This document shows positions 19,196 to 58,402 of a DNA stretch of 64,000 nucleotides, piece by piece. Both the position numbers and the translations under genes were made by a program. Within the stretch, counting starts at the first letter, position 1. Every line of letters starts with the position of its first letter. The notes under the pieces were generated by a model. The model did no database searches, was not told the origin of the DNA, and saw nothing but the letters and a program-made list of their open reading frames with translations. The DNA lies in the NCBI RefSeq assembly GCF_019393635.1, contig NC_057861.1, forward strand, positions 662,187,724 through 662,251,723, read 5' to 3'. The stretch comes from Dromiciops gliroides (Eukaryota; Chordata; Mammalia; Microbiotheria; Microbiotheriidae).

Positions 19196-19572
19196 TCAAA
19201 TCACTTTTAAAAATCTATTAATTAGACAGGTATACGTAAGTCCATGGTTTGCTTATGATGGTGACTATGTAGAGCACAATTACCAGGCACAGTCCAGTAT
19301 TCATCCTCTCTCCCTCCTAATTTAACCTAATTTAAGTGAACTTATTTATCTTTTTATCTCACTCAGTTGAACTCACCTGTGGCCTAGCACAATCACTGGC
19401 TGTCTCGGAACCATGAGATATGGTATGATAGCTTTTCCATAACATTTTCAGGTGTCATGAACACATACTAAATTTGACTTTGATCCAGACACATGGTGGT
19501 AAAAAGTGTTACCGATTGCATAACTACCTCAATCCTTTATTAAAAGTCTAAGGATATAAAGGAGGGAATGTA

Positions 19573-19836
19573 ATGGAATTTATTAATTTGATCATTGACA
19601 ATGCTATGCTAAGGTTTAGTAAAAATACAGCAATTCAAACAGTTAAAGAAGAGAATCCAGCTTTCCAGACCAGAATCCAGACCAGAGTCCAGAATCCAGT
19701 TTCACAGACCAGAATCCAGTTTCCTCCTGATGACATCTTACCACTTCAAGAAGACAAGAGAACTCAGAGACTTTATATGAACTGTTTTGCTTTATTAGTT
19801 TTTACTATCTCCTTTCTGTTATTATATGCCATCTAA
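19573..19836 (+). pseudogene. ERV-internal frame: repeat-containing protein with C-terminal membrane segment
   Basis: An ATG-started 87-codon frame runs MEFINLIIDNAMLRF, then glutamine/threonine/arginine-rich repeats (QTRIQ, QTRVQ units, about residues 33-50), then a hydrophobic C-terminal segment (about residues 70-87, CFALLVFTISFLLL). The same start and first part occur at 35341-35520, where the frame ends earlier. It could be a remnant of a transmembrane gene end, since it lies shortly before the 3' LTR, where env ends in a provirus. I see no fusion peptide or cysteine motif to support that. Non-functional status is assumed, not shown. Confidence 0.35.
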
Positions 19837-20051
19837 CATGTACTCTATGCAGAGGCTCTCCCTTTGCAAGACTAATGTCAAAGCGTCAGTTCATGAGGAC
19901 CAAAAAAAAAAAATCGCCCCTCTGGACAAAACTTTCCTCTCTTCCTTTTCTATATTGTTGTCCACATATTATTAGTTAGCAATAGTTATTATATTCTTTT
20001 TACTGTTCCGTCAAGGAAACGTTTTGTTTCTTGAGGAACAAAAGGGGGGAC

Positions 20052-20411
20052 TGTAATGATTGGAATGATGCCACCTACTGGAGACTTGCTGTGGGAAAGC
20101 TCCACCATGAGGAAAATGCCTCAGAGACTTTGTGGCTTTTCCTTGGCATCAGGAAATGACGTTTGCTCGTGGGTGCTGTCTATCAAGGCTACCAGCCAAT
20201 CAACTTGAGGAGCCTCCTATTTTCTGGGAGGAGACAGGAAGGAGGAAAGGGAGCCTGCGCGGAGAGCTCTGGGGCTTTTTGGGTTCCTGACTTGATGGTG
20301 GTGGCGGCAGAGGACTTCACAGGAAATTTGAGGAAAGATAGGAATGCCAGGCTGTTGGAATTCTGTTCTCAATCTTTTTCTTTCTATTTTTCAATAAACC
20401 CTTAAAAACCT
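20052..20411 (+). repeat. U3-R part of a type A-like LTR within the retrocopy
   Basis: It starts TGTAATGATTGGAATGATGC after a purine tract (AACAAAAGGGGGGAC). The first 60 bases match LTR A; the middle is different and GC-richer. AATAAA is at 20393. U5 is absent, as expected for a polyadenylated transcript end. Confidence 0.85.
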
Positions 20412-20433
20412 AAAAAAAAAAAATCTATTAATT

Positions 20434-31801: not shown

Positions 31802-32172
31802 TGTTAAAGGGCTAAAATTCTAGCTAAACTGTCTAAAATATCTAATGAGTGGTTGTCAATAAATTATAAGCTTTAGCAAGAGTTAGACTTTTAAGCATTT
31901 ATTAAGGAGAATAAGAATTTGGTAAAGAGAGAGAGAAAGGCCTACATTCATCTATCTATTAAAGGGAGAGCACATTTCTAGCTCCCTTCTCCACCTGAGT
32001 CCTCAGGAAAAAGCCAGTAAGAGCGCCAGCCTCCCCCTTCTTCCTCCCACAAGCAAACGTCACTTCCTGAGCCAAAGAAAAGACTCATGATCTTGCCCTC
32101 AGAGACCTTCACTTCATGGTGGAGCTCTTCTACAGTAAGTCTCCAGCAGGTGGTGTCATTCCAATTGTTACA
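31802..32172 (-). repeat. LTR type A, minus strand (outer end of the 5'-to-5' locus)
   Basis: On the minus strand it starts TGTAACAATTGGAATG (32172) and ends GCCCTTTAACA (31802). It is the 3' LTR of the minus-strand half. Its outer end is U5. The flank CTAT (31798-31801) matches the flank beyond the LTR B at 36306, but not the sequence on its own inner side (GTCC). Confidence 0.92.
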
Positions 32173-34440
32173 GTCCCTGCTTTGTTTCTTCAAGAAACGG
32201 GGCATTTCCTTGATGAAACAATAAAAAAATAACAGAATATAATAACCTATGCTAACTAACAATATGTTAATAACAATATAGAAAAGGGAGAGAGGAAAGT
32301 TTTGTCCAGAGGGGCAATTTTTTGTCCTCATGAACTGGCGCTTTGACATTGGTCTTGCAAAGGGAGGACCTCTGAAGAGAATACATATAACAGATGGTGT
32401 ATATTATAACAGAAAGAGAAAAAAAAACAACAACAACAACAACAAAACTGTTCATTTAAAGTCTCTGAAAGTCTTTTCTCGGATGTCCTCTAGGTGTAGT
32501 CGTGGAATGGAAGTCTTTTCAGGGGTTGATGTGTAGATGCTGGTAATCAGCCAGGAAAATTTCCTACAAAATTGAGCTTAACACAACTTTAAAATAGTTT
32601 TGTAAATAATCAAATCAAACAATGAAAGTTCTCAAAAATATGTCTAAGGGAATTCAGAATCTTAGTTGTTACCAATGAAACATATAATAAAACAAAAATT
32701 GAAACATTCTTTAAAAATTAATATTACTATAGTCCCCCCCTTGTGGTGGGTAAATTGAGAAGACAATTGCTGCGATATTAATTTTAAAAAATAATTTTTA
32801 TCTTTGTTTCATCACTTTTTGCATCATATGCCTAATTATCCTCATGCCATTATGAGAAATTTAAAAATCTAATATAATTGGTAACAGATGTCAAGACCAA
32901 ATTTAACACTGTATTTATAATGACACCTGAGATAATTATGGGGGTTAACATGAAAGAACAGAGAAATGATGGGATATGAGCATTCCCACACTTGAGCAAT
33001 ATATACTGTCCATGTAGTATGCCAGGCTTAAAATAGGTGGATGGAATATATGTCCATGCCACCGAATGTATTGGAGGAAACTGAGTCAGACTTAATCAGA
33101 TGCATAGGATTAAGATGTTCATGGCGGGGCAGCTAGATGGCACAGTGGATAGAGCACTGGCCCTGGATTCAGGAGTACCTGAGTTCAAATCTGGCCTCAG
33201 ACACTTAACACTTACTAGCTGTGTGACCCTGGGCAAGTCACTTAACCCCAATTGCCTCACCAAAAAAAAAAAAAAAAAGATGTTCATGGCATCAGGCATA
33301 TAGGAGGGGGCATAGAAGCCAGGTGAAGAATGAGATGGGTGGGATCAAAACTTCTAGCCATCTGTGCAGTATTGTGGGGAAAAAGAAAATAAACAAGAAT
33401 TAAACCAAGAGAATCCTGCCTCAACATTTGTCAAAAGTCATTCCCTCGGCCATACCTTGACTTCATGCATGTGACAGTTCAATGTCTGCTCTTGCATGTA
33501 TTCCTTTTGTGACTGGATGGCATCTTGGCCAACTGGCATCTGATAACTCAGAATAAAGGCAATTAATTTCTTAAATGATAAGTTCCCATAATCCAAGTCT
33601 CATATGGATTTAAAAATTGAGGATAATAAATGATTGCAAAAAATGTGAATGTACCTTGACTCAGAATATAATATACAATTATGCAACAATTTCAAATAAT
33701 ACTTTTTTTATACTAAGTATACAATTACTTTTGTGAAAAAATGGAACATAATTAAATACAAGTTAAAGCACAACACAATCTCAAAGAAAACTTTTTTTTT
33801 GAAAAAAGAAAACTTTTACAAATGTTCCCCTCTTTTTTTTGAATATGCTTATCAAAAATAATACTTCTAGAATCAATTTAGACTTGCCATGGCCACCAAT
33901 TTGCCAGAGAAATGCTTTAAAGAGTTTGATCAAATAATCAGTTGAGACAACAACAATAGCAAAAACAAACAACTCAGAATATGGGAGCACAATACTCCTA
34001 GAATTAACATTGTATTATGAAATCAAAACCATCTTGCAATGTTTCAAAATTAGAGAGATGAATGAATAGAGGAAAATACACATGGAACAATAAAAGACAA
34101 TAAAATTCAAACTAGGGAAATCTAAATGAATATGAACTTAATATTAATAAGAGTATTATAAAATATAAACTTGATCACATGACTATAAAAGCTTTTACCA
34201 ATATTCTATTTATTTTTTTAAAAGCTAAGTAAAAAACACAGTCTCAAAAGCATGAAAATCTCTATGAAAATAAACCCATACCATCAATTTCAAAATGTAG
34301 ATGTAATAGCATAGAAATCCTATGTGACCTCTGAACTGATACTATTACTCTGTGTGAATTTAGAACACTTTTGATTCTGATATCTAAAATTCCCAATACT
34401 TATATCAATACCTTGCTGCTTTTCAAAGACATTTTAAGTA
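32173..34440 (-). mobile_element. ERV internal region, minus-strand half (copy 2)
   Basis: Collinear in reverse with about 1000-3083 of ERV copy 1, including the purine tract beside the LTR and the two short frames (33590 to 32850). A SINE interrupts it at 33126-33278. Homology to copy 1 fades at 34430-34465, so the 5' part (the leader and the proline-rich frame) and a 5' LTR are missing. Directly beyond lies the plus-strand half. Confidence 0.85.
33126..33278 (+). repeat. CORE-SINE (Mar1/WSINE type) inside ERV copy 2
   Basis: Target duplication AAGATGTTCATGG before (33112-33124) and after (about 33278-33290). The uninterrupted sequence is seen at about 2128-2140 in copy 1. The SINE is therefore younger than the ERV insertion. 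Confidence 0.95.
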
Positions 34441-35813
34441 TATGCTGTGGGTGGGGTCATTGGGCCTCAGAAGCTACCAGAATTCTTTTTTTTTCTCTTT
34501 CTTTTTGAGTGAACCATGAGTTCTGATGAGTTTTTTTCTCTTTTATGGGATTCTGTTTAAAAAAAAAAAAGAGGGTTATTGAACCCTATTGCTTGATCTA
34601 TCAATGAACATATTGAATATTGAATCTTGCTAATTGAAGCCTTATTCCTTTTTGATAAATTGATGACCACTTTAAGTATCTGCTACTGTTATACTAGAGA
34701 ATTTATGTATAAGATGATGTGGTTTACTTGCTAAAAGAATTTTATGTAATAATGTTTGATATAATCAGCTATTTACATTCATTTATCATTTATATGTCAT
34801 TATACTATGGGTATGGTTTGGAATTATTTTGTATATCACTAGTATATCCTTAGTTATGCAGCATAGCACACATTTTTACCGTCATCCTGTCTTTGGTGAA
34901 ATTAATATGAGATTTAGGAAGTATGGAAACTTGTCATTTCAGAGACTAACTTACTGTGAACTTTAATGCAGGCCCTAGAAAGAATATATGTGCAACAAAA
35001 GGAGAGACAGGTATACGTAAGTCCATGGTTTGCTTATGATAGCGACTATGTAGAGCACAATTACTAGACACAGTCCAGTTTCATCCTCTCTCCTTCCTAA
35101 TATAACCTAATTTAACTGAACTTGTTTTCTTTTTTGTCTCACTCAGTCTAATCACCTGTGGCCCTACATAATCACTGGCTGTCTCGAAACCATGAGATAT
35201 GGTATTATAATCTTTCCATAACATTTTTCAAGTGTCATGAACACATACTAAATTTGGCTTTGATCCAGACACATGGTGGTAAAAAGTGTTACAGATTGCA
35301 TAACTACCTCAACCCTCTGTTATATAAAGGAGGGAATGTAATGGAATTTATTAATTTGATCATTGACAATGCTATGCTAAGGTTGAGAAAAAATCCAGCA
35401 ATTCAAACAATTAAAGAAGAGAATCCAGCTTCCCAGACCAGAGTCCAGAATCCAGCTTTCCAGACCAGAGTCCAGAACCCAGAGCCCAGTTTTCCAGACC
35501 AGAATCCACCTTCCTCTTGATGACATCTTAGCACTTCAAGAAGACAAGAGAACTCAGAGACTTTATATGAACAGTTTTGTTTTGTTAGTTTTTGTTATCT
35601 CCTTCTGTTATTATATACCATCCATAACATGTACTACCTCTGCAAGACCAATGTCAAAGTGTCAAGTTCATGAGGGACTGCCCCTCTGGACAAAACTTTT
35701 CTCTCTCCCTTTTCTATATTGATATTAACATATTATTAGCTAGCATAGGATATTATTTTTGGCTGTTTCATTGAGCAAACTTATTCGTTTTTCAAATGAA
35801 ACAAAGGGGTGAA
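34441..35813 (+). mobile_element. ERV internal region, plus-strand half
   Basis: From 35005 it is nearly collinear with the retrocopy at 19224-20050. From about 34770 to 34990 it shows diverged similarity to 1690-1870 of copy 1 (GGTTTGGAATTATTTTGTAT; then GAAACTTGTCATTTCAGAGA). It ends in a purine tract (AATGAAACAAAGGGGTGAA) right before LTR B. The exact join with the minus-strand half lies somewhere in 34430-34560. Gag, pol and env motifs are absent. Confidence 0.75.
35341..35520 (+). pseudogene. Counterpart of the repeat-containing ERV frame
   Basis: Same start (MEFINLIIDNAMLR) as 19573-19836, then FQTRVQNP-type repeats, but the frame stops at 35518 before the hydrophobic C-terminal segment. 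A short tandem repeat of the unit CCAGACCAGAGTCCAGAATC, differing in number and phase between the two copies, explains the frame difference. Confidence 0.35.
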
Positions 35814-36306
35814 TGTGGTAAAAAACAGCATACTAATGAAGCAGTTTTTGAAGGACCGCCCTTTTGGGGAGGATACCATGAGGAACAGCCATGAGCCTGC
35901 TGCTGCCTGGGAGAGTGTGGCCAAGCACACCGTACTTCCGGGACGCCAACTTAAAACTGGGAGTAGAACAGAAGTTGGCTCTCAGTCTAGCACACTCTGG
36001 CTTCTAAGTTTAGAAGTGACTGCGTGTTCTGGTGATCGGCTCTGGTTCTCAGCCTGGCAGGCAGTTTGGGGATTCAGTGAGTTTTATAAAAGAATATAGA
36101 CTGAGCTTAGATCTAAGACTATTCATTTGTATTTCTACTTTCCTTTTTCCCTATTCAGTATCACCTGTTTGTTGTCTAAACAATAAAGGCTAATCCCTCA
36201 CTGATTAAAAGCTCAGAGGCTTCTTTTCTTATTGGTCTGGGAGATATACGAAGGAAAAAGTTAAAGGGGGAGTTTAATGCTCTTATAGTAAATTTTAAAT
36301 CTCGCA
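35814..36306 (+). repeat. LTR type B (493 bp), plus strand
   Basis: It starts TGTGGTAAAAAACAGCATAC and ends AAATCTCGCA. A TATA-like TTTTATAAAAG lies at about 36080 and AATAAA at about 36182, a normal promoter and poly-A layout. The flank CTAT (36307-36310) matches 31798-31801. The only other copy is the 3' LTR at 50741-51290. Confidence 0.88.
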
Positions 36307-37639: not shown

Positions 37640-38220
37640 AAGTCAACTAGGTGGCTCACTGGATAGAGTGCTTGGCCTGGAGTCAGGAAGACCTGAGTTC
37701 AAATCCAGCCTCAGGCACTTAATAGCTCTGTGACCTATAGCAAATCACTTAAGCTTTGTTTGGAGAAAGAAATGGCAAAACATTCCAGTATCTTTACCAA
37801 GATATACCCCATAGACAGTGTAACGATTGGAATGATGCCACATGCTGAAGACTTACTGTAGGAAAGCTCCAACATGAGGAGAGGGCCTCTGAGGGAAGGA
37901 CCATACATCTTTTCTTTGGTGTCAGGAAGTGATGTTTGCTCATAGGAGTAAGAAGGGGGAGGCTGGCACACTGGCTCACTCTCTTTCATGTGGACTCTGG
38001 CAGAGAGTGGAGCTAGGCATGCTCTCTCCCTTTAATAGATAGATGAATCTAGGCCTTTACCAAATTCCTGTTCTCCTTAATAAGTGCTTAAAAGTCTAAC
38101 TCTTGCTAAAGCTTATAATTTATTGGCAACCACTCATTAGATATTTTAGACAGTATAGCTAGAATTTTAGCCCTTACAACAGTATGCTCCATGGGCCATG
38201 AAGAGGCTAATACAACTGAA
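37640..38220 (+). repeat. CORE-SINE, long-tailed subtype, split by a solo LTR
   Basis: Head and core at 37640-37760, then the long 3' tail (GAAATGGCAAAACATTCCAG, TATCTTTACCAAGATA) to 37818. It resumes after the LTR at 38179 with ATGCTCCATGGGCCATGAAG to about 38220. Confidence 0.8.
37819..38178 (+). repeat. Solo LTR type A (360 bp)
   Basis: Starts TGTAACGATTGGAATGATGC and ends TAGCCCTTACA. The 4-bp target duplication ACAG is at 37815-37818 and 38179-38182. It sits inside a SINE, so this insertion is younger than the SINE. AATAAG replaces the usual AATAAA. Confidence 0.93.
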
Positions 38221-47770: not shown

Positions 47771-49407
47771 CTAACTACTATCTCCCTCATTGTTTCTCCA
47801 GGTGATGAATCCTCCCCAAAAAAGGTTTAACTCAGAAGCATGACTCCCAGGGAAAGGCTCCAAGGGACTTCAGAATATCCTGATTTAGTCTGAAAAAATG
47901 ACCATCTAATGTTTGTAACATTTTGATTTATATTTGTTATCCTGGTATCAACTAAAAAAAATGGATATAATGTCATGAGCCTTGATTTTGAAATCTGGCT
48001 CTTATATTTACTGGGGTGTATGGTCAGAACCATCACTTCATCTTTCTGAGAATCAGTTTCCTGTTCATTATAATAATATAGAACTGCTTATCTCATCAGT
48101 AAATTGGAAAGAAAAATATTCAAAAAGCCTTCTTTTTTCTTTTTTTCTTTTTCTTTTTTTGCTTTGAATAGAATTATATTTTCCAAAATATATGTAAAAA
48201 CAAATTTTAACATCAATTTTTTAAAACTTTGCCTTCCAACTTGTCTTCATCCCTCAATTCCCACCCCCACCCATAAGAACTCAAGCAATTCAAAATAAGT
48301 TATACATGAGTAGTCATGGAAAAATTCCCATATCAGCTAGTTATGAGAGAAAACAATCAAAAAATCCCCAAAACTTTAGATTAAGGAATTGTCAAAGAGG
48401 AAAAGAAAAAAAATTAAATGTGTTTCCATCTGTTTTCAGATACTATCGGTTCTTTCTCTGCAGATTGGCTGCAATCTTCCTAAGTCCTTCAGGGTTATAG
48501 TGGATCATTGCCTTGCTGAAAATGACCACATGCTTCCCAGCAGATCATCCCCACTATTGCTGGTATTTTGTATACAGTACATTTCACTCTGCTTCAGTTC
48601 ATGTAGGTCTTTCCAGGTTTTTCTGATAGTATCCTGTTCTTCATAACCTGTATATAATTACTTAAGCTTAACGGAGAATTTTCTTCATAAAAGCCCAGCA
48701 AAATAGGTACCATATGTTTTGCCATTATAATCAATCATCATAACTATTTCCCTCCATCCCACTCCCTTCCAATGACATTTACTCTATCTTCTTTTTACCT
48801 ATTCTTCCTCAAAAGTGACTATCCTCTCCCCTGCTCTGTACTCACTTTTTTCACCTTTTCTTCCTTATCCTCCTCCCCTCTTCCTTTCCTGCAGGGTTCA
48901 ATAGATTACTCCTCCTAACTGGGTATGAATGCTATTCCTTCCATGAGCTCACTCCATTGAGATCAGGGTCCTGAGCTAATTCTGTGTTCTAAATTTTTCT
49001 TCCTCCCTCCTCAACCCTCCCTATGAGATCAAGCAGTTTGATATGTCATACTTGCACAGTAATGCAGAACATCTTCATCTTCCTTGAAAGTGTTTTGCTT
49101 TTTGCTGCCCTCTCCCCCAATCTGCCCTTCCCTCCTTCTCTTCCCCCCCACTCTCTGTCCCCTCCCTCAGGGCAAAAATATATTACTATACCTACTTGAG
49201 TATGTATGTTAGTCCTTCTTTGAGCCCATTCTGATAATATTAAGGTTCACTCACTCCCCAACTCTTTCCCCCTCTTCTCCTTCCCTCCATAACCATTTTT
49301 CTTGTTTCCTTCATGTGAACTACCTCTCCCCAGACCATCTCTCCTCTTATCCCCCTCCCCCAGTCTATTTCTCCTACATCTCAACCCTATTTTAATGATG
49401 TCATCAT

Positions 49408-49505
49408 GAGTTGTTGGGTGGCACAGTGGACAAAGCACCAGCCCTGGATCCAGGAGGCCCCAAGCCCGAATATGGCCCCAGACATAAGACACCCCACCCT
49501 GTCTG
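49408..49505 (+). repeat. Diverged CORE-SINE fragment
   Basis: GTTGGGTGGCACAGTGGACAA then CAGCCCTGGATCCAGGAGG keeps the SINE head; the rest is diverged or truncated. Confidence 0.65.
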
Positions 49506-49676
49506 CCCACAAAGAACAAAAGATAAATGCTTTACAGATATCATCCCTTCATATTCAATTCAGAACTGTGTCTTCTGTGACTTTCTTTCTGAGATAGTTC
49601 TTATGAGTTCAAAGTAGGAATGTAAATGGCTTGATCTTTTAATATCCCTCATGAAGTCATTTTCCTGTTTACCATT

Positions 49677-50540
49677 TTATGCTTCTCCAGACTCTTGTAT
49701 TTGAAAGTCAAATTTTCTATTCAGTTCAGGTCTTTTCATCACAAATGCCTGAAAGACCTCTTTCTCATTGAAATCCCATTTTTTCCTCTGAAAGATTATA
49801 CTAAGTTTTGCTGGGTATGTGATTTTTGCCTCTAGTCCCAGTTCCTTTGCCCTCTGGAATATCATACTCCATGCCCTCCTGCCTTTAATGTAGAAGCTGC
49901 TAGATCTTGCTTTATCCTTGCTTTATCCTCCACAGTATTTGAATTCCTTTTTTCTAGCTGCTTGCAATATTTTCTCCTTGACCTGGGAGTTCTGGAATTT
50001 GGCTATAATATTCCTGGAGGATTTCCTTTTGGGATCTCTTTCAGGAAGTGTTTGGTGGATTCTTTTGATTTCTATTTTAGCTTCTGTTTCTAGAATATCA
50101 GGGAAATTTTCCCTCACAATCTCTTGGAGGATGGTGTCTAAGCTTTTGTTTTGGTCATGGTTTCAGGTAGTCCAATGATTTTCAAATTATCTCTCCTAGA
50201 TTTATTTTCCAGGTCAGCTGTTTTTCCAAGGAGATATTTCACATTGCCCTCTATTTTCTCTTTCAATTGGATTTGCTTTACTCTGTCTTGGTTTCTCATA
50301 AGGTCACTAGGTTCCATTTGTTCAGTCCTAATTCTTAGGCAGTTATTTTCATCAGACAATTTTTTTAATCTCTTTTTCCATTTGGGCTTTTAAACTGTTG
50401 ACTTTTTTCACATGACTCTCCTGCATCGTTCTCATTTCTCTTTCCATTGTTTCCTCCCTTTCTCTACATCTTCCTTCTATTTCTCCTACTTTCTCTTTAA
50501 GTCCTTTTGAGAGCTTTCATGGCCTGAGACCAGTTCACAT
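49677..50540 (-). pseudogene. L1-type ORF1 (RNA-binding chaperone) pseudogene
   Basis: L1 ORF1 proteins form trimers, bind RNA and act as nucleic-acid chaperones in the LINE ribonucleoprotein. On the minus strand, 50359-50138 reads EGNVKYLLGKTADLENKSRR followed by NLKIIGLPE, the start of the RNA-recognition-motif domain. Then 50117-49923 continues with an RIHQTLPER...PKRKSSRNIIAKF block and KEKILQAARKK. Finally 49865-49677 has the C-terminal domain (YPAKLSIIFQRKKWDF). The coiled-coil part upstream is decayed. The three open pieces are in different frames, so the gene is dead. Confidence 0.8.
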
Positions 50541-50740
50541 TTTTCTTGGAAGCCTTGGATGTTGAAGCTTTGACCCTGTTATTACCTTCTTCTTCTGAGG
50601 TTCATGGTCTTCTGCTTTCTCTGCCTACTCATCCTGGCTTACTATTTCTTGGCTTTTAACTCCTTCTTAAAGTGTGGTTCTACTTCCAGGACACACTGTT
50701 CGAGCTACAGCATGGCCCAGGGGATGATTGGCCTTCTTCT

Positions 50741-51290
50741 TGTGAGATCTAAAATTGGATATTAGATCATAAATCTCCCCTCTTTAACCTTTCCCTTAAT
50801 TTATCTCCCAGACTAGTAAAGGGAAGAAGCTTCTGTTTTTCTAGTTAGAGCTTTTATTGTATGGTAGTTACAAGGTGATGTTGATTAGAAGGATAGGAAA
50901 GTAGAAATACAATACAAATCATCTTAAGTCTAAGCTTAGTCTCTATTACATATAAAACTCACCAAAATCCCAAGGCCACCTTTGGGGAGAGAGAGAGACC
51001 GAGTCAAGCGCATGCTGCTGCTAACCGCGAGCCGGGCCGAGTCAAACTCCAGTCAGCGTCTGTCTGTGCAGCACATTCAGGAGACCAGCGGAGCAAGAAA
51101 AAGCAAACACTTCTGTTCTCTCCTTGCCTTTTTAAGCTCGCACCCCAGAAGTCGAGTGCTTAGCAGGTAGTCTGGCATGCGTAGATCATGCCGTTGGTCT
51201 CCTCCCCAAAAGGGTGGTCCTGCAAAAACTGACGTCTTTCAGTTATCCTAACCGACTGTTAAAAAACTTTCATTTTTTTTTTTAACCACA
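50741..51290 (-). repeat. 3' LTR type B (550 bp) of the mosaic ERV
   Basis: On the minus strand it starts TGTGGTTAAAAAAAAAAATG after a purine tract and ends TTTTAGATCTCACA. It shares CCCTTTTGGGGAGGA and the U5 end with 35814-36306 but is longer and diverged. The poly-A signal region is at about 50850-50860 (TTTATTG on the plus strand). Confidence 0.88.
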
Positions 51291-51367
51291 TTTCCGCCCT
51301 TTGCTTCCTCAAGAAATGGAATGTTTCCTTGATGGAACAGTAAAAAGAATATAATAACTATTGCTAA

Positions 51368-52000
51368 CTAATAATATGTGAAAAACATTAAAGAAAAAAG
51401 CAGGTTAGCAAAATTATGAACAAAACAAGCATATCTGGAATTTAAAAGGTTTTCTAAGGTTGTCTCAGAAGCACAGCCAGGGTGGAGAAGGGCTGAGCCT
51501 GAAGCTGAAAATGTAGGTAGAGAAAGCTGAGCATGCACATCAGATCTCTGGACTTCAGGGGCAGGGGAAGCAATGGGCTTGGCCATGGGAGGAGTAGAGG
51601 GTGGGATCTGGAGAGGAGGGGAGGGACCAGCGCAATTTGAATCAGGCTTGATTTTGAACTCAGGCCTGGATTCCTCTTCCTCCACTTTGCCTCCAGGCGC
51701 TAGGAGATTAAAAGCTTCTAGAGGGTGGGTCATTGCCTCCAGGCATACAAAATTAGAGCAACAATTACTGTTAGAACTGGGAAAAGCTGCAGGAATCTCT
51801 TCAGGTTTCTCTGTAAAAACATGTTTGGGAGAGGGGGAGATATTTCCTTGTGTGAGTACATTGCTGGCTCCTCTAACAAAAATAAAAAGAAAAAGAAAAA
51901 ATCCACAAAAACAAAGCATTAACATGATCTTATCCCCCATTTGTCTGGTTGAACAGACTAAAATCAAAAATAGGGTAATTAGGGAGTTTAAAAGGTCCAT
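51368..52000 (-). CDS. Intact ERV frame: double-membrane-segment, proline-rich protein (210 aa)
   Basis: ATG at 52000, stop at 51368. Two hydrophobic segments lie near the N-terminus (about residues 4-17 and 27-43) with a short polar loop between, then a serine/proline-rich region (about 60-160, e.g. PSPPLQIPPSTPPMAKP), then a hydrophobic C-terminal tail (about 193-210) reading across the deletion join at about 51385. The same start and leader occur in the broken copy at 239-1116. The frame being kept open here but not there could mean recent insertion, selection, or chance. I recognise no retroviral domain. By position, right after the leader of the provirus, it could be a gag-region or accessory protein, but this is a guess. 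It would be transcribed from LTR A. It is not a host gene. Confidence 0.5.
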   Translation of the reverse strand: MDLLNSLITLFLILVCSTRQMGDKIMLMLCFCGFFLFLFIFVRGASNVLTQGNISPSPKHVFTEKPEEIPAAFPSSNSNCCSNFVCLEAMTHPLEAFNLLAPGGKVEEEESRPEFKIKPDSNCAGPSPPLQIPPSTPPMAKPIASPAPEVQRSDVHAQLSLPTFSASGSALLHPGCASETTLENLLNSRYACFVHNFANLLFSLMFFTYY

Positions 52001-52136
52001 TTGAAAAAATTTAATGGGAAAACACCGGTCAATTCAGCAGTACTTCGAATTTAAACAGATAGGGTAGGGGAAATTTCTTACCCAACCAGAAGATCAGAAG
52101 AGTGAGGTTTAGCTTTCCTCTTCGTGGTCAGCCATC

Positions 52137-52508
52137 TGTTAAGGGCTAAAATTCTAGCTAACCTGTCTAAAATATCTAATGAGTGATCACCAATAAATTA
52201 TAAGCTTTAGCAAGAGTTAGGCTTTTAAGCATTTAGTAAGGAGAATAAGAATTTGGTAAAGAGAGAGAGAAAGGCCTATATTTATCTATCTATTAAAGGG
52301 AGAGTGCATTTCTAGCTCCCTTCTCCACTAGAGTCCAGAGGAAAGAGAGAGACAGAGCGCTAGTCTCTTCCTTCTTCCTCCCACTAGCCCACGTCACTTC
52401 CTGACACCAAAGAAAAGACTCCTGGTCTTGCCCTCAAAGACCTTCGCTTCATGGGCGGAACTCTTCTACAGTAAGTCTCCAGCAGGTGGCATCATTCCAA
52501 TTGTTACA
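52137..52508 (-). repeat. 5' LTR type A (372 bp) of the mosaic ERV
   Basis: On the minus strand it starts TGTAACAATTGGAATGATGC and ends AGCCCTTAACA. It is followed by GATGGCTGACCACGAAGAGG, where a primer-binding site would start with TGG; I could not assign a tRNA. Confidence 0.92.
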
Positions 52509-53085
52509 TTCTCAGCCTGCCTGGCCTTGCTTTTGTTTGATTTTAAATTCTCCACTGAAAGGTAGGGAGGGGGGGTTTGGGGTAGGGGGGCTGATTCTCG
52601 GCTCCACTCCTGTTCCCAGCTTCAGAGGGTCCCAGTTGTTTTGGTTTGAGGGGGAGCAGGTTTTTTGATGAGCCTGCTTCCCTTCTCCCCTCCCCACCTG
52701 GGCCTCCAGCCACTCAGGATTTCTTCCTGGTTCCCCACTGGGGTGAAACAGTTGAATCCTTCCCCCCAGTCCACTGGTACCCCTGCACTTACCACCCCCA
52801 ACCCCCTGGCCAGCCCTTCAACCCAACTGTGAGCTTGGTTCCAGAAGACGCTGTTGCTGTAGCCGATTCAGATGTACTGGGGCAAATTCCTTGGGCGGGT
52901 GTCTGGTGTGTAAGCCTAATTGTGGGGTTAGGCTTTATTCGTGACCCAGCATGACCCACTGAAATCTATCTATAGTTGGAGAAAACTCTCACCCAATATT
53001 TTTTTGTGTTTTTCTGCTCCAAGGGTTCTTTTATTGCTATTTTTGGGGTGATTGTCTTTCCTCTGTCATCTTGGTTTGCCCCCCC

Positions 53086-54205
53086 CAAGCTTTCTTCTTA
53101 ATGCAAATATTAGCTTTTATTATATCTGCATTCAAGGATGGTATGGGTATCCTAATATTCCAACAAATTCTATAAAGAAATAACAACAATATTTTTCTTA
53201 TCTTGAGGTTGGAATATTTCATTTCTTGGCATAAAGCAGGGATTTAATAAATGCTTATTGATTGACCCAAAATAAAGAATTAGAAGGTAACTAAGAGTCA
53301 ATTTGGAACAATTTCCACTGTACAATTTGGTACAATTAGGTCTAGGAGAGATTATTGACTAGTCCAAAGTCACTAATCTAGTTACCATAAAAATGGGAGT
53401 TGGACCTACAACCTCAGATTCCAGAAAAAGATTCTTTTGTCTGTTATTCTATTTCTTTCACCTTTCCACATCATACTGCCTCAAATTTTTGGTTCCTTCA
53501 TGTACCCTTTTAAACTAAGAGGTGGGCATGTAGTGTCACAGGGACAGAGAAAGGTTATTAAAGAAACTTTTATTAAGTCAGGGTAAAATCAAAGAAAGAT
53601 GAGAGAAGAAAGGGAAATAAGACATGAATGCACTACTATTGAGGTTACTTGTCCCTGAAAGGCAGTTTGGTATATTCAAAAGATTGCTAGTTTTAAAGCT
53701 AGATGTAGCAAGTAGAAGCATTGGAGAAATTGATTTCTTTTTCTGGTACTCAATTTCTGCATTTTTACAGTGAAGGAACAAAACTACTGTATCTCAGAAA
53801 TCCAATAATCTGTGGTCTCAAGACCACATATCTTTTTCCTCCTTCTATGTACTTTCAAACCAACTTCATCTGCACGATTTCCCTTTTGGAAATATATCTA
53901 TCCCTTCAAGGGAAACTAACTAAAGTTCGGACTTCCTCCTTGGCATCGAGATACACACAATTTCTGCAAAATTCTAAAAGAAACAATGTGGGAGATCACT
54001 CAGTTAATGCTGCCTAGAACAGTAGATGAAGCAGGGTTAACTTCTCTTTTACAAGTTATCTATAACCAAATACTTCAGGAATTTCTGAAGGACAGACTTT
54101 CTCTTGAGTGTTCTAAAGAAAAAAAGGAAAAGAAAACAGAGCATGAGAGTGGGACATAAACGAAAGCATTAAGGTCAGGGATGCTAAATCCTGTTCTTTT
54201 ATATT
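53086..54205. other. Unannotated DNA with an L2-like tail
   Basis: 53215-53275 (GGGATTTAATAAATGCTTAT then TGATTGACCC) resembles an L2/MIR3 3' end. No gene seen. Confidence 0.45.
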
Positions 54206-57964: not shown

Positions 57965-58402
57965 TATAAGGGCCTAAAATTCTGGCTATGATGTCTAAAA
58001 TCTAATGAGTGGCTGCCTTAAATTAGAAGCTTTAAAAAAGGTTTAGATTTTAAGTATTAAAGTGCATCAGAATTTAGAGATGAGAGGTAAAAAGCAAACT
58101 TCATCTAACTATCTAAGAGAGCCCAGCATCTGTCCTCCCACCAAGCCACAGTCCTGAAACAAAAGGCCTCACTCCTCCCAGAAGCCTCCTGTGAAACAGG
58201 AAACAGGGTTGTACACACACAGCTCCAAGCTAATTGGTTGGTAGCACTGATTGACAGGACCCATGGGTTGCAAACCACTTCCTGACACCAATCTGACCTT
58301 CAAAACCCCAGAAAAGGTCACTTCCAGATGCTAACATGGTTTCTTTTCATGCCAGAGCTCACAATGTTGCTCCCAGCCAGGGGGGGTCATTCCAATCTCA
58401 CA
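57965..58402 (-). repeat. Solo LTR (438 bp), relative of type A, minus strand
   Basis: The minus strand starts TGTGAGATTGGAATGACCCC and ends with CTAATGAG... to GCCCTTATA; the U5 end resembles type A but the terminal CA has mutated to TA. Target duplication ATGC at 57961-57964 and 58403-58406. Confidence 0.85.

Follow-up and report, generated by a model that had tools for sequence, protein, structure and literature searches.

We found in the genome of Dromiciops gliroides a provirus that carries two unrelated LTRs at a single true integration site: its left part is of one family, A, to the first base, and its right part is of a second family, B, from position 51333 to the last base. Positions are those of the window, the whole 64,000-nucleotide stretch of DNA that we analysed (contig NC_057861.1, 662,187,724 to 662,251,723). 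Both LTRs of a provirus normally derive from one template, since reverse transcription rebuilds them from a single U3-R-U5 copy, so that the hybrid requires a further step. We suggest, with a probability of about 0.7, that it arose by one integration, its ends supplied by cDNAs of two co-active families that were joined before or during that integration; this figure rests on the two outer ends and the empty site, and comparison with common A elements left it unchanged. An earlier note on this DNA had proposed one element, one integration site and two unrelated LTR families, in conflict with ordinary LTR regeneration. Alignment of the LTRs against shuffled sequences and the empty site in an L1 confirm that proposal, and the conflict is real, the LTRs being non-homologous and the site single and true.

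Read on the minus strand, the element consists of AGAA, LTR A, 2 nt, a primer binding site, about 750 nt of A interior, a join, 96 nt with a polypurine tract, LTR B, and AGAA. The target-site duplication of 4 bp reads AGAA in the direction of the element and TTCT on the plus strand; its 5' copy is at 52509-52512 and its 3' copy at 50737-50740. The 5' LTR, of family A, occupies 52137-52508 (372 nt, TGTAAC...TTAACA) and its best matches in its own genome, which was searched as 3.30 Gb in 17 contigs, are at 93-95%; the 3' LTR, of family B, occupies 50741-51290 (550 nt, TGTGGT...CTCACA), with best matches of 90-94%. All of these coordinates agree with those given in the earlier note. The primer binding site (52117-52134) begins 2 nt past LTR A and is of tRNA-Arg type with one extra T; one of the two genomic loci read holds a tRNA-Arg gene with a 3' end complementary to it. 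The A-family 5' internal part (51387-52136, about 750 nt) is continuous with LTR A. At the join (51386/51387), about 2.1 kb that is found in a related copy in the window, copy 1, is absent. The 3' internal end (51291-51386, 96 nt) is closest to family B and of B type from 51333 on, and ends in a B-type polypurine tract (51291-51302) whose ...GGAAA abuts the TGTGG of LTR B.

These features, namely TG...CA LTR ends, a 4-bp target duplication, and a primer binding site and polypurine tract adjoining the LTRs, are those of an LTR retroelement or ERV. The 4-bp duplication alone is only suggestive of a class I (gammaretrovirus-like) ERV. A Pfam scan of five open frames of the hybrid element and related copies gave no match above cut-off to gag, pro-pol or env, and from its sequence the hybrid element looks non-autonomous. 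The join lies within a minus-strand open frame of 221 aa (51368-52033); a protein search with this frame returned no relatives at E 0.001, and a Pfam scan no match above cut-off.

LTR A and LTR B are not homologous. Their local alignment scores 127 (the first 2 nt of LTR B being left out), and 8 of 200 dinucleotide shuffles (mean 98, maximum 141) score at least as high, placing the pair within the range of shuffled sequence. By eye, they have in common the TGT...ACA ends and an 8-nt word, AATTTTAG, near the end of U5. The hybrid thus does not carry the homologous LTR pair expected of a normal provirus. Patterns of LTR A and LTR B found no match in viral contigs, and a pattern search of genome contigs also gave no match.

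The element interrupts an L1-type element on the same strand, the 5' UTR of which forms the upstream flank (52513-53086, outer end approximate; 75 matches in its own genome) and the remainder of which forms the downstream flank (48155-50740, outer end approximate), with remnants of L1 ORF1 at 49677-50162 (Pfam PF02994, 4.4e-11; PF17490, 1.3e-8). We searched the genome with the 574 nt of L1 upstream of the element, scored 40 of 4150 first-look candidates and fetched 29 paralogues, in 28 of which both flanks could be placed. The empty L1 site that the earlier note had proposed to look for is present among them: in 27 of the 28 the flanks abut with zero gap around a single AGAA or a mutated equivalent. 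The exception, L025, has 3 nt of a short AGAAGAAG run missing; L019, in which the downstream match begins 18 nt in, was left out of the count. Because the empty site is contiguous with one AGAA, the TTCT/AGAA repeat is a genuine target duplication of 4 bp, and the L1 lost nothing at insertion. The chance that two random flank 4-mers match is 0.0065. Neither LTR has a target repeat of its own, since the primer binding site lies 2 nt past LTR A and the polypurine tract directly before LTR B; the earlier note had named such a repeat as evidence against its proposal, and we looked for it. The element therefore lacks the separate repeats of nested or adjacent solo LTRs, and it has neither the unmatched repeats nor the flanks of two places that mark an inter-locus recombinant provirus. 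Comparison with a second L1 copy in the window had weakly suggested that L1 sequence was missing; this was dropped after dinucleotide shuffles, which scored at least as high in 180 of 200 cases for the whole upstream flank, 39 of 200 for the downstream piece and a marginal 6 of 200 for the 250 nt nearest the site.

Four bp is the normal duplication size for both families. A 4-bp duplication flanks 6 of 9 full-ended copies of LTR A, two of the six (L005 and L006) lying in simple repeats and hence being weak, and 18 of 23 full-ended copies of LTR B. Seven of the remaining eight full-ended copies are LTRs still joined to proviral interior, and one matches at three of four positions; copies with incomplete ends, including 6 of the 29 B loci, were excluded from this count. 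Two solo LTRs in the window carry such repeats, ACAG around 37819-38178 and ATGC around 57965-58402.

The interior is composite, and its 5' part is copy-1-like, as the earlier note had held: it is identical to copy 1 at 684 of 736 positions over 51398-52136, and all 39 other genome copies scored, of 1675 candidates, match it to exactly 51387 at 96-97%. The join, which had been put at about 51385, exists, and we refine its position to 51386/51387. The search for other copies with the same join, also proposed in that note, found none among the 39 scored copies of 1675 candidates. A join pattern allowing up to 3 mismatches gave 4674 matches; among those listed, only the hybrid element has 1 mismatch, and none of the nine with 2 mismatches has the A side. 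The parental sequences resemble each other at the join over 1 nt perfectly and at 8 of 13 imperfectly, the latter being reached by 1.0% of random registers of copy 1 against copy 3.

The 3' part had been described as retrocopy-like, but it is closer to ordinary LTR-B proviruses. The 96 nt match four B proviruses at 94/96, 93/96, 93/96 and 87/92, whereas the retrocopy in the window (copy 3, 19-20 kb) matches at 84 of 95, and our assignment of this part as copy-3-like (88.6%) was replaced by the closer B-family matches. Four copy-1-type A copies match at 78-83 of 94-95 (Fisher p 0.0004-0.0054 against B), and a B-related copy in the window, copy 4, matches poorly, at 69 of 90. Twenty common A elements match at 84-88 of 94, one of them at 87 of 90, and over the 96 nt the difference between B and common A has p < 0.05 in only 7 of the 20. 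These elements were picked by eye, all from contig 1, among the matches to the A LTR-end-plus-primer-site pattern and the join pattern, as having a motif 2.7-2.9 kb from an A-type primer site. Each of the 20 has an A-type LTR at its end, matching the first 270-290 nt of LTR A at 84-91%; at the 5' side, the comparison covered only the U5 end of the LTR and the primer site. The motif, which lies past the join, is therefore not specific to B.

By eye, the first 53 nt past the join (51386-51334) are shared by B and common A copies, and from 51333 to LTR B the element has the B letter at every site that separates B from common A. Because the first 53 nt are uninformative and the sequence is of B type from 51333, the family switch falls between 51387 and 51333, and the comparison with common A elements weakens the claim that the family changes exactly at the join. 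On these letters the switch likely falls at the join itself, which is its simplest placement; it could also have occurred between 51387 and 51333 in a step apart from the deletion.

Both families occur elsewhere in the genome, and A is a large one. The end of the A LTR with its primer site has 4094 exact matches (reversed control, 3), and the B-type U5 end with the tRNA-Arg-type primer site has 129 matches (control, 2). Three of the latter places were fetched; LTR B is present in L072 and L073, and L074 gave no LTR B match. A young A x B recombinant, L075/L076, has an A-type primer site and 5' interior and a B-type 3' end, its last 96 interior nt matching three B copies at 91-92 of 96 and three A copies at 80-85 of 94-96. 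Both of its LTRs are of B type, identical over 531 nt and flanked by GGTT repeats. This element is the ordinary reverse-transcription product of an A x B cross, and as a control it marks the hybrid as odd. L072 (1021-1635) contains LTR B and a primer site, after which come the final 40 nt of LTR A and, next to them, 70 nt of A interior that open with a second primer site; we read this arrangement as a putative recombinant joint at the primer site. Since A x B recombinants such as L075/L076 and L072 exist, A and B templates met. L073 (1017-1985) has LTR B and a primer site followed by an inverted LTR B with a fragment of 3' interior.

The 29 other LTR B loci have no same-direction LTR A within 1.5 kb upstream; only four of them (L043, L046, L047 and L056) keep upstream B interior, so that these loci say little on A-B pairing. 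A-type LTR sequence lies within 1.5 kb of five of the 29 (L045, L048, L052, L053 and L061), which looks like clustering. At L047 (L069), an inverted A element lies upstream of the B interior.

Without CpG sites, the pairwise own-branch length of the hybrid's LTRs is 0.025 +- 0.009 for LTR A and 0.035 +- 0.008 for LTR B, with no significant difference; with all sites the values are 0.032 for LTR A and 0.043 for LTR B. Branches of the sampled copies average much the same in A (0.021) and B (0.019); copy 2 of the window and L006 were excluded from the A set. These values fit an arrival of both LTRs together, at a time when A and B were active. In a maximum-likelihood tree the terminal branches are 0.027 for LTR A and 0.059 for LTR B, and private substitutions number 5 of 370 and 12 of 548, respectively. 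This difference is the main result against joint arrival and could be read as different ages; because the tree samples are unequal (29 and 11 copies) and were chosen by likeness to the query, we do not take it as an age difference.

We propose that cDNAs of families A and B were together in one cell, probably from one particle, and that an end-to-end joint formed between them, in which the 3' part of A and the 5' part of B were lost. Joining may have preceded integration, by host end joining of broken cDNAs, or may have occurred during it, if one intasome took up an end from either cDNA and the free ends were afterwards joined by the host. The retroviral integrase would have used the left (U3) end of the A cDNA and the right (U5) end of the B cDNA, in an otherwise normal integration. 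Double-donor concerted integration in the germline, with the A U3 end and the B U5 end inserted across one 4-bp stagger, the free arms joined and the interior lost, is a possible form of this event that we offer tentatively. We favour cDNA joining because a single event then accounts for both outer ends being intact, for the true target repeat and for a non-homologous join with a deletion. The joining step itself we infer; the similarity at the join is slight. A transcript of the hybrid would run from the R of A to the R of B, which are unlike, so that the first strand transfer could not be completed; the hybrid provirus is therefore probably a dead end.

The earlier note had offered two origins, the first being template switching between co-packaged transcripts. 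This is insufficient alone, as the L075/L076 cross has two identical B-type LTRs; because its LTRs were homogenised, the hybrid calls either for two DNA products to be joined before integration or in its course, or for an additional strand transfer of an unusual kind. An additional transfer would make reverse transcription alone sufficient: the minus strand would switch from B to A at the join and continue beyond the A primer site to copy U5 and R of A, which needs that end of the A RNA still to be present; it would then jump to the 3' R of an A transcript and copy U3 of A, and a plus strand primed at the A polypurine tract would fix the left end, the usual second transfer being skipped. Such a route asks only for template switches, which A and B evidently made, and the structure of L072 looks as if A copying ran beyond its primer site; against it, a long single-strand overhang past U3 of A would have to be trimmed before integrase could use the end, and the LTRs of the A x B recombinant L075/L076 did become alike. 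We consider it unlikely, and gene conversion equally so, in which sequence from another locus would later have replaced one LTR and part of the interior of a normal A-A or B-B provirus integrated here. Other ERVs are reported to show both LTR conversion and LTR pairs that are discordant, as far as the accessible text of the reports goes (PMC6407205, PMC11379458, PMC1779541). Here, LTR B is of B type to the last base and LTR A of A type to the first, so a conversion tract must end exactly at the host edge, at a provirus/host border where A and B share only TGT/ACA and the 8-nt word.

Exact tandem integration, of B into the AGAA beside a resident A or the reverse, followed by a deletion from A interior to B interior, predicts the AGAA on both sides and the contiguous L1 just as well. 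It demands two independent hits on the same 4 bp, and about 0.01 A/B coincidences are expected genome-wide even before the deletion, using rough copy numbers of 4094 for A (pattern matches) and 4880 for B (first-look candidates); we judge it somewhat less likely again than the two preceding explanations. Recombination between two proviruses was the other origin suggested in the earlier note. A crossover between two loci, by which the available part of one report explains a gibbon provirus whose LTRs are discordant and whose target repeats do not match (PMC11379458), or the fusion by deletion of proviruses at different L1 points, predicts unmatched repeats or lost L1 sequence, and neither is seen in the 27 of 28 paralogues with both flanks. 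An intact L1 with a true duplication rules out both, as far as the paralogues go, leaving them a negligible probability, and the contiguous L1 paralogues contradict what had been our leading rival, two neighbouring proviruses followed by a deletion. An assembly error is very improbable too: repeats are abundant and the hybrid is known from assembled sequence alone, but such an error would not be expected to produce a correct 4-bp repeat at a point where other L1 copies are contiguous, with both elements exact to the last base at either end.

Pairs of discordant LTRs have been described before and, in the accessible portions of the papers concerned, are attributed to conversion or inter-element recombination (PMC1779541, PMC6407205, PMC11379458, PMC6298018). 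These portions describe discordant gibbon SERV-K LTRs of one group, in one case with mismatched target repeats (PMC11379458), and an LTR7/LTR7Y pair in HERV-H whose annotation is, according to its authors, possibly erroneous (PMC6298018). The HERV-K/SERV-K and HERV-H cases resemble ours in that two LTRs of one provirus have different histories; as described there, their LTRs belong to one virus group, whereas those of the hybrid are non-homologous and its target repeat is real. L075/L076 is alike in combining an A-type 5' interior with a B-type 3' end, but it has two identical B-type LTRs and GGTT repeats where the window element has A on the left and B on the right.

The cDNA joining that we propose has precedents for its parts. 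Non-homologous end joining acts on linear retroviral cDNA, as established for circles in the part of the source available (PMC3148978); two-LTR circles and end-joined unintegrated DNA remain circles or dead ends in such accounts, whereas here a linear joint molecule apparently integrated. In vitro, purified integrase can insert two short viral DNA ends concertedly, and the target duplication is then regular (5 bp with Rev-A), according to the available text (PMC3790719). The donors in that reaction are identical and short, whereas those proposed here are of two different families, in the germline. The literature that we searched, partly in abridged form and with most subscription journals outside it, yielded no germline counterpart of two-donor integration with different families and no report of unrelated LTRs on one provirus at a verified site. 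LTR dating depends on the textbook rule that the two LTRs are identical at integration. One provirus departing from this rule, at a site verified as single, suggests that the ends of one insertion can come from two different viral DNAs. LTRs of different families with one common true target repeat are a genome signature by which the rate of such events in nature could be assessed; pipelines that pair LTRs by similarity would overlook such hybrids.

Three further structures were observed in the course of these searches. At C3:394276837-394276870, a B-type primer-site match overlaps a match to a longer tRNA-Arg 3' pattern, so that the tRNA-like sequence there extends beyond the usual 18 nt. In the window, at 31802-36306, an A-type element (minus strand, 34421 to 31802) lies head to head with a B-related element (plus strand, to 36306), neither having a 5' LTR beside the meeting point. 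Copy 3 (19221-20424) has a poly(A) after AATAAA and the repeat AAAAATCTATTAATT at both sides, and looks like an L1-made retrocopy of the 3' part of an A2-type transcript.
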